Origin: Gammaproteobacteria bacterium
GTDB lineage: Bacteria; Pseudomonadota; Gammaproteobacteria; Chromatiales; Chromatiaceae
Assembly: GCA_024510845.1 (NCBI GenBank)
Contig: JANEMA010000006.1
Span: forward strand, 1-39,366
Length of the DNA: 39,366 nucleotides
Direction: 5' to 3'
Every line of letters begins with the position of its first letter. Within the stretch, counting starts at the first letter, position 1. Made by a program: the position numbers and the translations under genes. The notes beneath the pieces were generated by a model, which saw only the letters and a list, made by a program, of their open reading frames with translations, was not told the DNA's origin and made no database searches. Shown one piece after another: positions 1-3,525 of this stretch.

Positions 1-223
1 CCGAGGTTCCAGCCTCTGCCAGACGACGCCGCCAGCGGTACAGGGTGGCTCGGCTTACCCCCAGAATCTCCGCCGCCTGGGCCGCTGTCAGCCCATGCGC
101 CTTTCGCAGCCGCTCGAACCGCTCCAGCTGCCGGAGGCGAAAAACCACCTCGGGATCGTCAAAAACCTTGTCTGCCAGGCGGGCAGACCGCATGATTTCG
201 CCTTGAAGGCCAAATACCTTCAT
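1..223 (-). CDS. Transposase/integrase-like helix-turn-helix protein, N-terminal part (cut by window edge)
   Basis: Only the first 74 residues are visible; the gene runs off the left edge. The ATG at 223-221 has GGAGG seven bases upstream, a strong ribosome binding site. Residues about 45-66 form a helix-turn-helix with GVSRATLYRW as recognition helix, preceded by a charged helical stretch (RLRQLERFERLRK). This arrangement is typical of the N-terminus of transposases with an HTH followed by an integrase-type catalytic domain, but that domain lies outside the window, so the IS family cannot be named. A DNA-binding regulator is the alternative. The gene follows mucD on the same strand, separated by a hairpin and about 280 bases without a convincing gene. 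Confidence 0.65.
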   Translation of the reverse strand, partial: MKVFGLQGEIMRSARLADKVFDDPEVVFRLRQLERFERLRKAHGLTAAQAAEILGVSRATLYRWRRRLAEAGTS

Positions 224-226
224 CTC

Positions 227-273
227 GGGGCCTCCTCTTCCGGTTTCTCAACCACTCCCGGAGATGAGGCCCC
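227..273 (-). promoter_or_regulatory. Imperfect inverted repeat covering the ribosome binding site of the transposase-like gene
   Basis: The arms are 227-243 (GGGGCCTCCTCTTCCGG) and 258-273 (CCGGAGATGAGGCCCC). They pair almost completely, with one mismatch and one bulge, around a 14-base loop. On the minus strand the arm nearer the gene contains the GGAGG ribosome binding site, ending three bases before the start codon region. If transcription starts upstream of 273, the hairpin would hide the binding site. Hiding the start site from read-through transcripts is a known way of limiting transposase synthesis in some insertion sequences; its use here is inference. Confidence 0.5.
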
Positions 274-447
274 TTCTTCATGCCCTCAACGTCTCACATG
301 TGTCTGAACCTGGTCAGCTGCTCAATATCGGTGACATACTCGCAGATCGTCTCGTCGCCCAGGCAGAGTACCGGCACCTTTCAGGCCAAAACGCTCGTGC
401 CAAGACAGATGCTAAGCCAGATATGGCCACAGCTGCGAAACAGCAAG
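274..447. other. No convincing gene; possible minus-strand 3' gene remnant at 294-381
   Basis: No complete gene is visible here. On the minus strand one frame reads about 28 residues, including PVLCLGDETICEYVTDIEQL, ending at a TGA at 296-294. It is closed by a stop just upstream and has no credible start. Its composition looks protein-like and it could be the 3' end of a gene broken next to the transposase-like gene, but I recognise no family. Plus-strand frames through this stretch look random. Confidence 0.25.
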
Positions 448-480
448 GCTGCCATCTCCTCGCAGAGATGGCAGCTTTTT
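448..480 (+). terminator. Hairpin with T-tract between mucD and the transposase-like gene
   Basis: GCTGCCATCTC (448-458) pairs perfectly with GAGATGGCAGC (465-475) around a 6-base loop, followed by five T on the plus strand (476-480). Read as plus it is a textbook intrinsic terminator. Read as minus, in the direction of mucD, the same 11-bp stem lies 24 bases past the stop codon but lacks a T-tract afterwards. It may serve mucD as a weaker terminator or may block antisense transcription entering mucD. Confidence 0.65.
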
Positions 481-503
481 CCCGGGAATAGAGGACGATG
501 TCT

Positions 504-1934
504 TCAGTCATCCAGACGGATGGCGATGAACAGCGGCTGACCATCACGCAGGATCAGTGCCGCCACGGTGCCCTTCGTTTTCTTCACCAACTTGCGCAGG
601 TGTGCCGCACTCTCGACCCTTTTGCGGTTGAATATGCGAATCACATCGCCACGCATCAGACCTGCCTCGCGCGCAGGACCTTCGTCATCCACTTGGGTGA
701 TCAGAGCACCGCCGGCCGACAGCTTGGCGCGCTTGCGTACCTCGGGTGTCGGGTCCACGATCACTGCACCCAGGTGACCGATGTGATCGGGGTCGACGCG
801 CTGACCACCACCGACACTGGCGGTGATGGCCTTTCCTGGCAGTTCGGTGATACGCACCTTGACCGTCATACGCTTGCCGTCGCGAATGATGGCAAGGGTG
901 GCGTCCTTGTCCACCGCGCTGACACCGACCAGCGGCGGCAACTCACCCGAGCGCTTGATTGGCGTACCATTGAACGCAATGATGATGTCACCGGCCCGCA
1001 ATCCGGCCTTTTTGGCTGGAGTGTCCTTCATGACCTGGGTGACCAAGGCGCCCTGCGGCTGCTTCAGCTCGAAGGATTCGGCCAGGTTGCGATCCACGTC
1101 CTGGATGAGTACTCCCAGATAGCCGCGTGAGACATGACCAGTCTTGCTCAACTGCTCAGCCACGTTCATTGCCAGTTCGATGGGAATGGCGAAGGACAAT
1201 CCCATGAAACCGCCGGTACGGCTGTAGATCTGAGAGTTGATGCCAACCACCTTGCCATTCATGTTGATCAACGGACCGCCCGAGTTACCGGGATTGATGG
1301 CCACGTCGGTCTGGATGAACGGCACATAGTTCTCGCTCGGCAGGCTGCGCCCCTTTGCCGAGACGATACCGGCGGTCACACTGTAGTCGAAGCCAAAGGG
1401 TGATCCGATGGCCAGTACCCATTCGCCCACATCCAGCTCACTCGATTTGCCGATCTTCACGGTTGGCAGATCGTCGGCCTCGATCTTGATCAGCGCGACA
1501 TCACTGGCCTTGTCGCTGCCGATCACCTTGGCATCGAACACTCGGCGATCGTTCAGGCGGACTTCCACCGTGTCGGCACCATCGATCACATGCCGGTTGG
1601 TCAGGATGTAACCGTCTTCCGAGATGATGAATCCCGAACCGAGCGACTGCATATCCGGCTCCGGCACGGGCATATTGGGAATTCCCTCGAAGAAGCGACG
1701 CAACAGATCATTGAAGGGACTGTCCTCCGGCAGGTCGGGAATCTTGAACTGATGTGGAAATCGCGGCTTGTCGCTCTTCTTGGCCTCGCGATGGCTGCTG
1801 ATATTGACCACCGCCGGGCTGTTCTCGCGCGCCAGATCGGTAAAGTCGGGCAGACTTCTGGCAACCGCCTGGCTGAGTGCCATCCAACCGACCAGTAACA
1901 TTCCGATCGAGAAGATACGAATCGTCTTCGACAT
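504..1934 (-). CDS. mucD: Periplasmic HtrA-family serine protease MucD/DegQ
   Basis: Periplasmic protease/chaperone of the DegP/DegQ/MucD family that degrades misfolded envelope proteins. The 476-residue protein starts with a Sec signal peptide (hydrophobic 5-20, cleavage likely after AVA near 25). The trypsin-like domain shows the complete triad: His115 (TNRHV), Asp145 (SDVAL) and Ser218 (GNSGGP). Two PDZ domains follow, about 255-350 and 385-470. The start at 1934 was chosen because it gives the signal peptide directly and has AAGGAAAAG upstream; a longer frame reaching 2102 would overlap rseC and add no family sequence. It is the last gene of the algU-muc operon, 50 bases after rseC, as in Pseudomonas, where MucD restrains AlgU activation. 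Confidence 0.96.
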   Translation of the reverse strand: MSKTIRIFSIGMLLVGWMALSQAVARSLPDFTDLARENSPAVVNISSHREAKKSDKPRFPHQFKIPDLPEDSPFNDLLRRFFEGIPNMPVPEPDMQSLGSGFIISEDGYILTNRHVIDGADTVEVRLNDRRVFDAKVIGSDKASDVALIKIEADDLPTVKIGKSSELDVGEWVLAIGSPFGFDYSVTAGIVSAKGRSLPSENYVPFIQTDVAINPGNSGGPLINMNGKVVGINSQIYSRTGGFMGLSFAIPIELAMNVAEQLSKTGHVSRGYLGVLIQDVDRNLAESFELKQPQGALVTQVMKDTPAKKAGLRAGDIIIAFNGTPIKRSGELPPLVGVSAVDKDATLAIIRDGKRMTVKVRITELPGKAITASVGGGQRVDPDHIGHLGAVIVDPTPEVRKRAKLSAGGALITQVDDEGPAREAGLMRGDVIRIFNRKRVESAAHLRKLVKKTKGTVAALILRDGQPLFIAIRLDD

Positions 1935-1984
1935 GATACTTTTCCTTGTTTGTTCACTGATATCGTTGTGCGACACGGAATGGA

Positions 1985-2491
1985 TCAGGTGTGCAGCCCA
2001 AGATCCCTGACCGCCACTGTCCGCATGCTGGGTTCGACTCGCAAGACTCGCACCGAGTGCGCGAGGTGAGCAGTGGTGCGATGATTGCGCCAGCTGACCC
2101 AAAAGAATGCCGCTGTCAGGCCGGATAGACCACCGAGGATGGATGCGAGTTCCGAGTTGCCCGCCACCGGTTCACCAGCGCCGGACAAGCCTCCGAGAAT
2201 GGCCCCACCCAGCAGCCCCAGCAGTGGTACGGCATACAGCAACAAGATGTTGCGTTGCAGATAGTCCTCGTCGATTCCCAGCACCGCCCGCTGACCAGGC
2301 AAGGGCCGACGCGCCAGATGATCGATCGGAAGGCACAATGGCTTCCGTTCACGGTCGGGGAAGAGCTTTGCCAGCAGGTCGGTTCCGCAAGTAGTATTCG
2401 CCCGGCACCCCCTGCAAGTCGACTGGCCCTCGGTATGTAATAGGGCGATGTCTCCCTCGACAGCAACCACAAGGGCGGGCTGTTCGATCAT
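1985..2491 (-). CDS. rseC: SoxR-reducing / sigma-E regulatory protein RseC (MucC)
   Basis: Inner-membrane protein of the RseC/MucC family, 168 residues. A cysteine cluster C26-x2-C29-x5-C35 lies in the N-terminal domain (CRGCRANTTC), followed by two membrane helices at about 82-104 and 115-134. The family is linked to sigma-E control and, in E. coli, to keeping SoxR reduced; which role applies here cannot be told from sequence. The ATG overlaps the rseB stop as ATGA, so translation is probably coupled. Confidence 0.93.
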   Translation of the reverse strand: MIEQPALVVAVEGDIALLHTEGQSTCRGCRANTTCGTDLLAKLFPDRERKPLCLPIDHLARRPLPGQRAVLGIDEDYLQRNILLLYAVPLLGLLGGAILGGLSGAGEPVAGNSELASILGGLSGLTAAFFWVSWRNHRTTAHLAHSVRVLRVEPSMRTVAVRDLGLHT

Positions 2492-3525
2492 CTCGGTTCC
2501 GCCGTGCGAACGATCCGACGCAAGGTATCACGTGGCACCTTGCCGACAGCCACCAACTGATAACCATCCCGGACCGTGCCAAAAGCTTCGGTGGCCCCGA
2601 TGCGCGAGAAACCGTCGAGCACAGGCTCCCTGTCACGATTCGGTTCGATATAAATTGACACCGAGGCCAGACCATCGGTGAAAACGTAGCGCTGCACACC
2701 CTCGCCCATACTGCCCTGAGTGATCAGACGGAAACCGGCAGGCAGATCACGAAACTGCCAGTCGATCGGTGGCGCAGCCTCGGTGGCCTCTTCCATCCTG
2801 GGCGGCCTGCGGGTCAGCTCCAGGGCCGAGATATCCCTCTCGATGGGGGTGATGTGACGGCCGGTCTTGAGATTGACAAACAGGGTCTGTGAACGCACCC
2901 GGCCGTCGTGTTCCAGCATTGCGGAGCGCAACGGCAGCACTGTGACCTCGTCGATGTCGATGCGATAGCCGAAACGCAGATGGTCGCGCGGGCGAATCTC
3001 GAGGCGCCGTGCCCGCCGTCCGACGGCACGCACCGAACCGAGCAGGACGAATTCGTAGAATTTGCGCAGGTGCTTGAAATCGGGCGCATTGCGATCCTGT
3101 ATGTCGGCGCGATTGCCGACTACGCTGATATGCCGACTGCGCGGCTCCAGACAGGCGACGGCCTGCTGTCCGCGGATCACCTGCTTGGGCTCACCATCCA
3201 GTGCCACCAAGCGTTCCAGCTCATGGCCCTCACGCACACGGTGGACCACGTACATACCATTGAGCTGTTCACCGACCTGATAGACGAATTGCCCCTCGTA
3301 ATCGGTGTCATGCACTGCCTGACGCATGCGTGCAAACCAGTCGGCGGCATCATCGGCATCCCCAGCCACCAAAAATGTCGGCAAGGCCAACGTCATCAAC
3401 AGGATCGACAGCCACAGAAAACGCCTGCCGGGATGGTCCTGGAGGACGCACCGCGCACCAGGCCTCGATATGTTCGGCCACGAAACGCGCTGACCACGGC
3501 TCTCGGAAAGTTCAGGGAAGAGCAT
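2488..3525 (-). CDS. rseB: Sigma-E factor regulatory protein RseB (MucB)
   Basis: Periplasmic partner of RseA that shields it from site-1 proteolysis and senses mislocalised lipoproteins or lipopolysaccharide. The 345-residue protein has a hydrophobic export segment at about 36-53 ending FLVAG, then the LolA-like N-terminal domain (from DWFARM) and the C-terminal domain ending near residue 340. The 35-residue stretch before the signal segment is unusually long, but no other ATG, GTG or TTG lies between 3525 and the hydrophobic core. The start overlaps the end of rseA by 14 bases, consistent with coupled translation. Confidence 0.95.
   Translation of the reverse strand: MLFPELSESRGQRVSWPNISRPGARCVLQDHPGRRFLWLSILLMTLALPTFLVAGDADDAADWFARMRQAVHDTDYEGQFVYQVGEQLNGMYVVHRVREGHELERLVALDGEPKQVIRGQQAVACLEPRSRHISVVGNRADIQDRNAPDFKHLRKFYEFVLLGSVRAVGRRARRLEIRPRDHLRFGYRIDIDEVTVLPLRSAMLEHDGRVRSQTLFVNLKTGRHITPIERDISALELTRRPPRMEEATEAAPPIDWQFRDLPAGFRLITQGSMGEGVQRYVFTDGLASVSIYIEPNRDREPVLDGFSRIGATEAFGTVRDGYQLVAVGKVPRDTLRRIVRTAEPR

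Follow-up and report, generated by a model that had tools for sequence, protein, structure and literature searches.

The locus studied here raises the question of whether an inverted repeat directly upstream of a transposase gene hides the ribosome binding site of that gene from transcripts that enter from outside. The window, the whole stretch of DNA that was analyzed, comprises 39,366 nucleotides from a Gammaproteobacteria bacterium, and its start is a contig end (G000:C62). The features that bear on the question are the following.

1..316, minus strand: left part of an IS481-like insertion sequence (IS), the rest lying off the contig end
2..223, minus strand: N-terminal 74 codons of the transposase (helix-turn-helix [HTH] domain; Pfam HTH_23, 3.1e-09), with the ATG at 223
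227..243 (minus strand 243-227): arm 2 of the repeat, CCGGAAGAGGAGGCCCC, 17 nt, containing the Shine-Dalgarno (SD) sequence, from sequence and folding
231..236, minus strand: SD sequence AGGAGG, separated by 7 nt from the transposase ATG at 223
258..273 (minus strand 273-258): arm 1 of the repeat, GGGGCCTCATCTCCGG, 16 nt, the anti-SD side and also the left copy of a subterminal repeat
291..316, minus strand: left terminal inverted repeat TGACCAGGTTCAGACACATGTGAGAC, matching right ends of the type TGTCTTGGTTCAATACATCTGAGAC in the same genome
317..321, minus strand: 5-bp target duplication GCAGC; on contig C55 the right end has these 5 bp as its flank
448..475: hairpin between the mucD-like gene and the IS, with TTTTT on the plus strand and CTTGCTGTTT toward the IS
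504..1934, minus strand: mucD-like (Do family) serine protease gene pointing into the IS (TIGR02037, 492.5 bits; cut-off, 416.2)

The hairpin and the element that carries it

The initial annotation of this DNA had described two arms of 17 and 16 bases that pair, with the SD in one of them, and both the sequence and RNA folding bear this out. Minus-strand RNA from 500 to 200 forms the hairpin in its minimum free energy structure and in its centroid structure. The RNA of positions 205 to 290 folds at -35.1 kcal/mol (z -3.2), and 1 of 200 dinucleotide shuffles was equally low. An Rfam search of window positions 1 to 2500 (E up to 1) returned two weak matches, neither close to the hairpin. A short leader open reading frame was rejected because its ATG is missing in several relatives. 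Within the transposase gene there is another hairpin, terminator-like, at 188-170 on the minus strand, about 35 nt past the start codon.

Four copies of the left end, each at a contig end and identical as far as they extend, and five right ends were found in the genome. The edge of the element was placed at 316, the point where the four genomic copies lose similarity; relatives having both ends are mostly 1136 to 1141 bp long. The hairpin is complete and unchanged in the copies on contigs C18 and C16, and on C53 the contig stops in the loop, right after arm 1. The repeat thus moves with the element, being linked to the IS left end in copies and relatives. Copies lacking the repeat had been named beforehand as evidence that would count against a shield; one copy without it exists, a deletion derivative (L013 2967-3862, at the same locus as L061) that lacks the SD and the start codon along with the hairpin. 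The right ends on C8 and C24 are internal to their contigs and remnant-like. The 5-bp flank CGTGC pairs C16 with C34, and GCAGC pairs the window with C55, which continues into a gene that we take, by eye, to be lepA. The mucD-like gene and lepA therefore probably flank the IS, all three being codirectional. A plasmid DNA search with window positions 1 to 320 gave no match.

The gene starting at 223, previously called transposase-like, is a transposase gene of which the contig end leaves the N-terminal 74 codons. The fragment is 84% identical to an intact relative (L036), a 345-amino-acid transposase with HTH and rve domains. Two intact transposases, P0001 (L036) and L074, were taken into the NCBIfam scan, and L067 was left out. 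The IS481 model was the top model for both, at 201.3 and 214.8 bits, respectively; neither reaches the curated 224-bit cut-off of this equivalog model, and the elements are therefore named IS481-like. Both transposases contain Pfam HTH_32, rve, and rve_3 in a single frame, whereas LZ_Tnp_IS481 was found in P0001 only (23.5 bits versus 22.2). Candidate DDE residues, located by motif, are D183, D242, and E277. As in the IS481 family, there are terminal inverted repeats and a short target duplication, which is an exact 5 bp in 44 of 57 left-right pairs. In Meiothermus taiwanensis, seven of nine fragmented left ends match a right end with the identical 5 bp. No Mutator-type match was obtained for these transposases at the limits used; HTH, rve, and IS481/IS3-type matches were found instead. 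In the Thermus copies L105 (both ends) and L106 (right end) the terminal repeat is swapped for GAGGTAGCACACGAAGGCAT.

The transposase had a match in 1 of 398 genomes in a phylum-wide search (E ≤ 1e-40) and in 7 of 369 genomes in a class-wide search (1e-30), and 25 of 50 Thermaceae genomes searched have a match at E ≤ 1e-30. Two Thermaceae genomes have at least 41 scored copies each. Viral contigs yielded no relative, and phage records yielded five, all below 60% identity.

Conservation of the leader hairpin

Eighteen leaders, the window's included, were scored; they come from named Gammaproteobacteria, Thermales, Octadecabacter, and other genomes, and some share a genome. The pairing of the SD region that the initial annotation saw in one leader is predicted in all 18, with a mean SD pairing of 0.40 to 0.83. 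SD pairing exceeds the shuffled mean in 17 leaders and equals it in Tth_L078. Against shuffles of the upstream part, the folding z score is -2 or lower in 14 of the 18 leaders; the other four fall short, and the Tos_L106 leader folds worse than its own shuffles. G175_L038 was left out of this scoring since its start codon is unclear; its leader folds too. The modest z scores of some relatives are what an inverted repeat arising by chance would lead one to expect, but in 18 leaders, which represent two phyla, both position and pairing have been retained, and this makes chance a barely credible explanation.

Compensatory changes were found in Thermales. Across 18 aligned Thermales leaders, 98.6% of cells are paired, and 14 cells are changed on both sides versus 6.0 ± 1.4 in shuffles, none of 500 being as high; the covariation is confined to two of eight pairs, and therefore reflects few independent events. 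The SD in Thermales is partly located in the loop. Among 10 gammaproteobacterial leaders 93.9% of cells are paired, a value as high in 11 of 500 shuffles, and both-side changes occur in 2 of 13 pairs, which 81 of 500 shuffles match. The first 115 bases of L034 and L014 differ solely in one base pair, C-G versus U-A. Template switching in quasi-palindromes can copy one arm from the other and so mimic selection. On the folding predictions, the earlier reading of the hairpin as a possible shield is better supported than before.

Transcription into and out of the element

The most probable explanation, in our judgment, is that a mobile IS481-like element carries the repeat as a leader hairpin at its left end, where it would lower transposase translation from RNA that crosses this end. 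Such RNA, for example, read-through from the mucD-like gene, would fold arm 1 onto the SD region of the transposase; with the SD region covered, translation would be lowered and transposase synthesis would stay low. The earlier observation that mucD points at the transposase gene holds, the TIGR02037 match identifying the gene as mucD-like. The accompanying statement that the hairpin between the two lacks a T-tract toward the IS needs correction. The hairpin at 448 to 475 has a clean T-run on the plus strand and a poor one toward the IS, yet its tail in that direction is CTTGCTGTTT and, for the same direction, a consensus scan classes it as terminator-like. Read-through from mucD may therefore be reduced. 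According to a crude coding score, the upstream neighbors of 38 copies read into the IS in 19 cases and away from it in 19. A shield would suit an IS that inserts upstream of promoter-like sequences and about half of whose upstream neighbors read into it.

Leader RNA pairing is known to conceal the transposase start in IS10, IS50, and IS200, and the predicted leader pairing over the transposase start makes the element studied here similar to all three. In IS10 and IS50 the native transcript lacks one arm, and by folding prediction the SD here is likewise paired in RNA entering from outside. In IS200 the leader hairpin is a brake on the transposase mRNA, as in ISPpu9 of Pseudomonas putida, which belongs to another IS family. 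The available text on ISPpu9 describes a leader structure that likely buries the ribosome binding site and limits transposase translation, and weakening of that structure raised a reporter 26-fold (PMC8450116). The ISPpu9 leader thus resembles the one predicted here in hiding the ribosome binding site; it differs, as far as that text goes, in having a long 5' untranslated region with two small RNAs, and ISPpu9 has REP targets (PMC8450116).

The hairpin might accordingly act as a constant brake, in the manner of ISPpu9, whether the transposase mRNA is native or comes from read-through. This possibility, to which we give about half the weight of a shield against entering RNA, overlaps that explanation and differs only in the transcripts affected. 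What separates the two is where native transcription starts. A consensus scan of window positions 1 to 700 found no promoter and none between the arms, and when the RNA was cut in silico 6 nt into arm 1, SD pairing was still at least 0.5 in 10 of 14 leaders; both results are in keeping with a constant brake. Yet in the window's element a cut 4 to 6 nt into arm 1 frees the SD, pairing falling from 0.80 to 0.10 and 0.06. In the Thermales leader alignment, moreover, an AT-rich block (GATAAAAAGA or GTAAAAATG) lies immediately upstream of arm 1. This block is a possible -10 element of a native promoter, and a native start could then fall inside arm 1, which would argue against a constant brake.

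The stem could also serve mainly as a terminator for transcripts that exit through the left end. In most Thermales leaders a T-rich tract (the reverse of AAAAAGA or AAAAATG) follows the stem on the outward strand. However, the outward tail in the window is TTCTTCATGC, and the scan lists no outward terminator at the stem. We consider this role very improbable.

Arm 1 as a subterminal repeat

The initial annotation had allowed that the repeat might instead be part of the end of the element. This alternative was right in part, since 12 of 18 elements carry arm 1 a second time, inverted, close to their right end (p < 0.05, uncorrected). The left and right ends compared came from different copies in the case of the window's element, G207, and G347. 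The window's arm 1 and the right-end copy on C34 share 14 of 17 bases (p = 0.0025), and in Tos_L106 the right-end copy matches arm 1 over as many as 15 of 15 bases. KatS3_L011 (9 of 10 bases, p 0.07) and Tos2_L104 (9 of 9 bases, p 0.10) gave weaker matches, and the copy was below significance in L038, L039, G371, and Octadecabacter. Lineage-specific variants of arm 1, for example, GTGGGGACC or GGGGAACC, are found at both ends. This includes the Thermales variants, and comparisons of Thermales left ends with gammaproteobacterial right ends score 5 to 8. Because it recurs inverted near the right end, arm 1, the left copy of this subterminal repeat, may also bind the transposase.

It follows that the arms might have been kept as DNA, as transposase-binding sites made up of the subterminal repeat and an inverted operator partner, with the RNA hairpin as a by-product. 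The right-end copies in 12 of the 18 elements, and the lineage variants at both ends, are what such sites would produce. Against this, arm 2 of the leaders examined contains or adjoins the SD, and it diverges, by eye, from the shared motif at the SD. Furthermore, G371_L070 and Oar_L079 keep an SD hairpin of another sequence and have no detectable right-end copy of arm 1. We therefore regard a purely DNA-level role as rather unlikely, somewhat more so than a constant brake. The two functions are compatible in the shield explanation, in which arm 1 would double as the left copy of the subterminal repeat and as a probable transposase-binding site.

Insertion upstream of promoter-like sequences

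The right flanks of the elements show where they insert. We pooled 113 distinct right flanks, removing only those that share their first 25 bases, so that orthologous insertions may remain. Flanks L133, L155, and L191 (inside a duplicated IS right end), L165 (N), and L122 (a duplicate) were excluded. For G805 (Thermaceae), 40 regions of one variant were fetched; this genome is probably Allomeiothermus silvanus because its leader is the same as that of the copy on the plasmid of that species.

TTG begins at +6 in 70 of the 113 right flanks, versus an average of 1.8 at other positions, and a -10-like TANNNT is at +29 or +30 in 77. Both hexamers match at 4 or more of 6 positions in 51 of the 113, compared with a fraction of 0.0010 of random positions in the loci; the corresponding count in left flanks is 0 of 86. 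The register of the right flanks and the left-flank result together indicate that the IS targets a point 5 bp ahead of promoter-like sequences, those of tRNA genes included, and inserts there in a single orientation. Thus, copies of such elements in two bacterial phyla are mostly at the same exact spot before predicted promoters, an oriented insertion at a fixed distance upstream of predicted sigma70/A promoters like that of TnGBS and ISLre2. In the window's genome, C34 reads CGTGC-TTGACA-17-CATAAT, C8 and C24 fit the pattern, and C55 has a weak -35 with TACAAT. Other flanks, for example, C49, Tos_L106, and Mta_L089, do not fit at all. IS481 itself targets NCTAGN and is not known to target promoters.

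Two other explanations were judged insufficient. Survival of intergenic insertions accounts for neither the exact register nor the left-flank result. A -35 motif alone as the target does not explain why flanks with a weak -35 keep a spaced -10: in 27 of 47 such flanks the -10 matches at 4 or more of 6 positions, and the mean number of -10 matches at the right spacing is 3.64 versus 2.21 ± 0.12 in shuffles. Also, TTGACA at an IS flank is followed by TANNNT at spacer 17 or 18 in 12 of 18 flanks of the Thermales set, versus 14 of 51 for TTGACA elsewhere in the same loci, a 27% background that is not small and weakens the case. The target register suggests that the transposase reads the promoter as a whole, perhaps via bound polymerase, and the promoter-like targets may be active promoters.

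The neighboring genes were also considered. A downstream tRNA gene in the same direction is present in 9 of 40 G805 loci (L138, L139, L141, L143, L146, L148, L151, L152, and L157), in two of four G833 loci scanned (L179 and L181), and at C8 and C24; from these sequences, tRNA promoters seem to be frequent targets. By the crude coding score, 23 of 38 copies have a downstream neighbor on the transposase strand, 13 have one on the opposite strand, and 2 have none; with tRNA genes counted, 32 of 38 have a downstream gene on the transposase strand. The loci at which an IS right end directly precedes a codirectional tRNA gene comprise the G805 and G833 loci named above together with L030 and L033.

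In 5 of 40 G805 loci (L137, L155, L156, L157, and L158) the right end is present two or three times in tandem, and L191 (G814) has a tandem duplication of its right end as well. The duplications comprise about 83 bp of the right end, with the junction GGGTC-TTGCTC-16-TAAGAT inside the IS, and it looks as if the IS had inserted into its own promoter-like sequence. The 5-bp flanks are swapped between L138 and L147 (CAATA/CATCC) and between L120 and L182 (TCATC/CCACC), as expected from recombination between two copies.

Relation to known systems and implications

Insertion at a fixed distance upstream of sigmaA promoters has been described for TnGBS integrative and conjugative elements, ISLre2, and ISKra4, which are Mutator-like (PMC3942029). 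As here, the right end is mostly on the promoter side, according to the portions of that paper that were available. However, the transposase of those elements is Mutator-like, whereas the one studied here is rve/IS481-like; the distance from the -35 is 13 to 17 bp there and 5 bp here; and a leader hairpin, present here, is not mentioned in those portions (PMC3942029). Promoter targeting by IS481-like elements was not reported in the literature searched, a search that did not extend to subscription papers or ISfinder notes. The hairpin logic and the kind of target are thus both known, whereas the transposase family and the distance differ from those of the published promoter-targeting elements.

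A more far-reaching reading, which we consider improbable, is that the IS481-like lineage independently evolved insertion at the upstream edge of the -35 contact, guided by RNA polymerase holoenzyme bound to the promoter, together with a single repeat in three roles: transposase site at both DNA ends, anti-SD arm in RNA from read-through, and, as a copy in the 3' part of the complete mRNA, a competitor that might release the SD. Within the mRNA, arm 1 and the right copy are complementary, with a duplex energy reached by no more than 4 of 300 shuffles in 13 of 17 elements, although such complementarity is inevitable for any inverted repeats in transcribed DNA. The icaR mRNA of Staphylococcus aureus offers a comparison, in that its 3' region can pair near the SD in a 5'-3' untranslated region interaction, as given in the available text (PMC3868564). 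In icaR the SD is covered by the 3' part, whereas the 3' copy here would hypothetically bind the anti-SD arm and might leave the SD exposed.

An IS that inserts at one base pair register before promoters would allow promoter finding by a transposase to be studied in a simple system with a single protein, and a promoter-registered IS481-like element would be a second case beside the Mutator-like elements. The 40 copies in G805 make the target rule directly testable. The combination of features may also be part of the reason why 40 or more copies can be tolerated in one genome, with genes and core promoters left intact and transposase from read-through limited by the hairpin.
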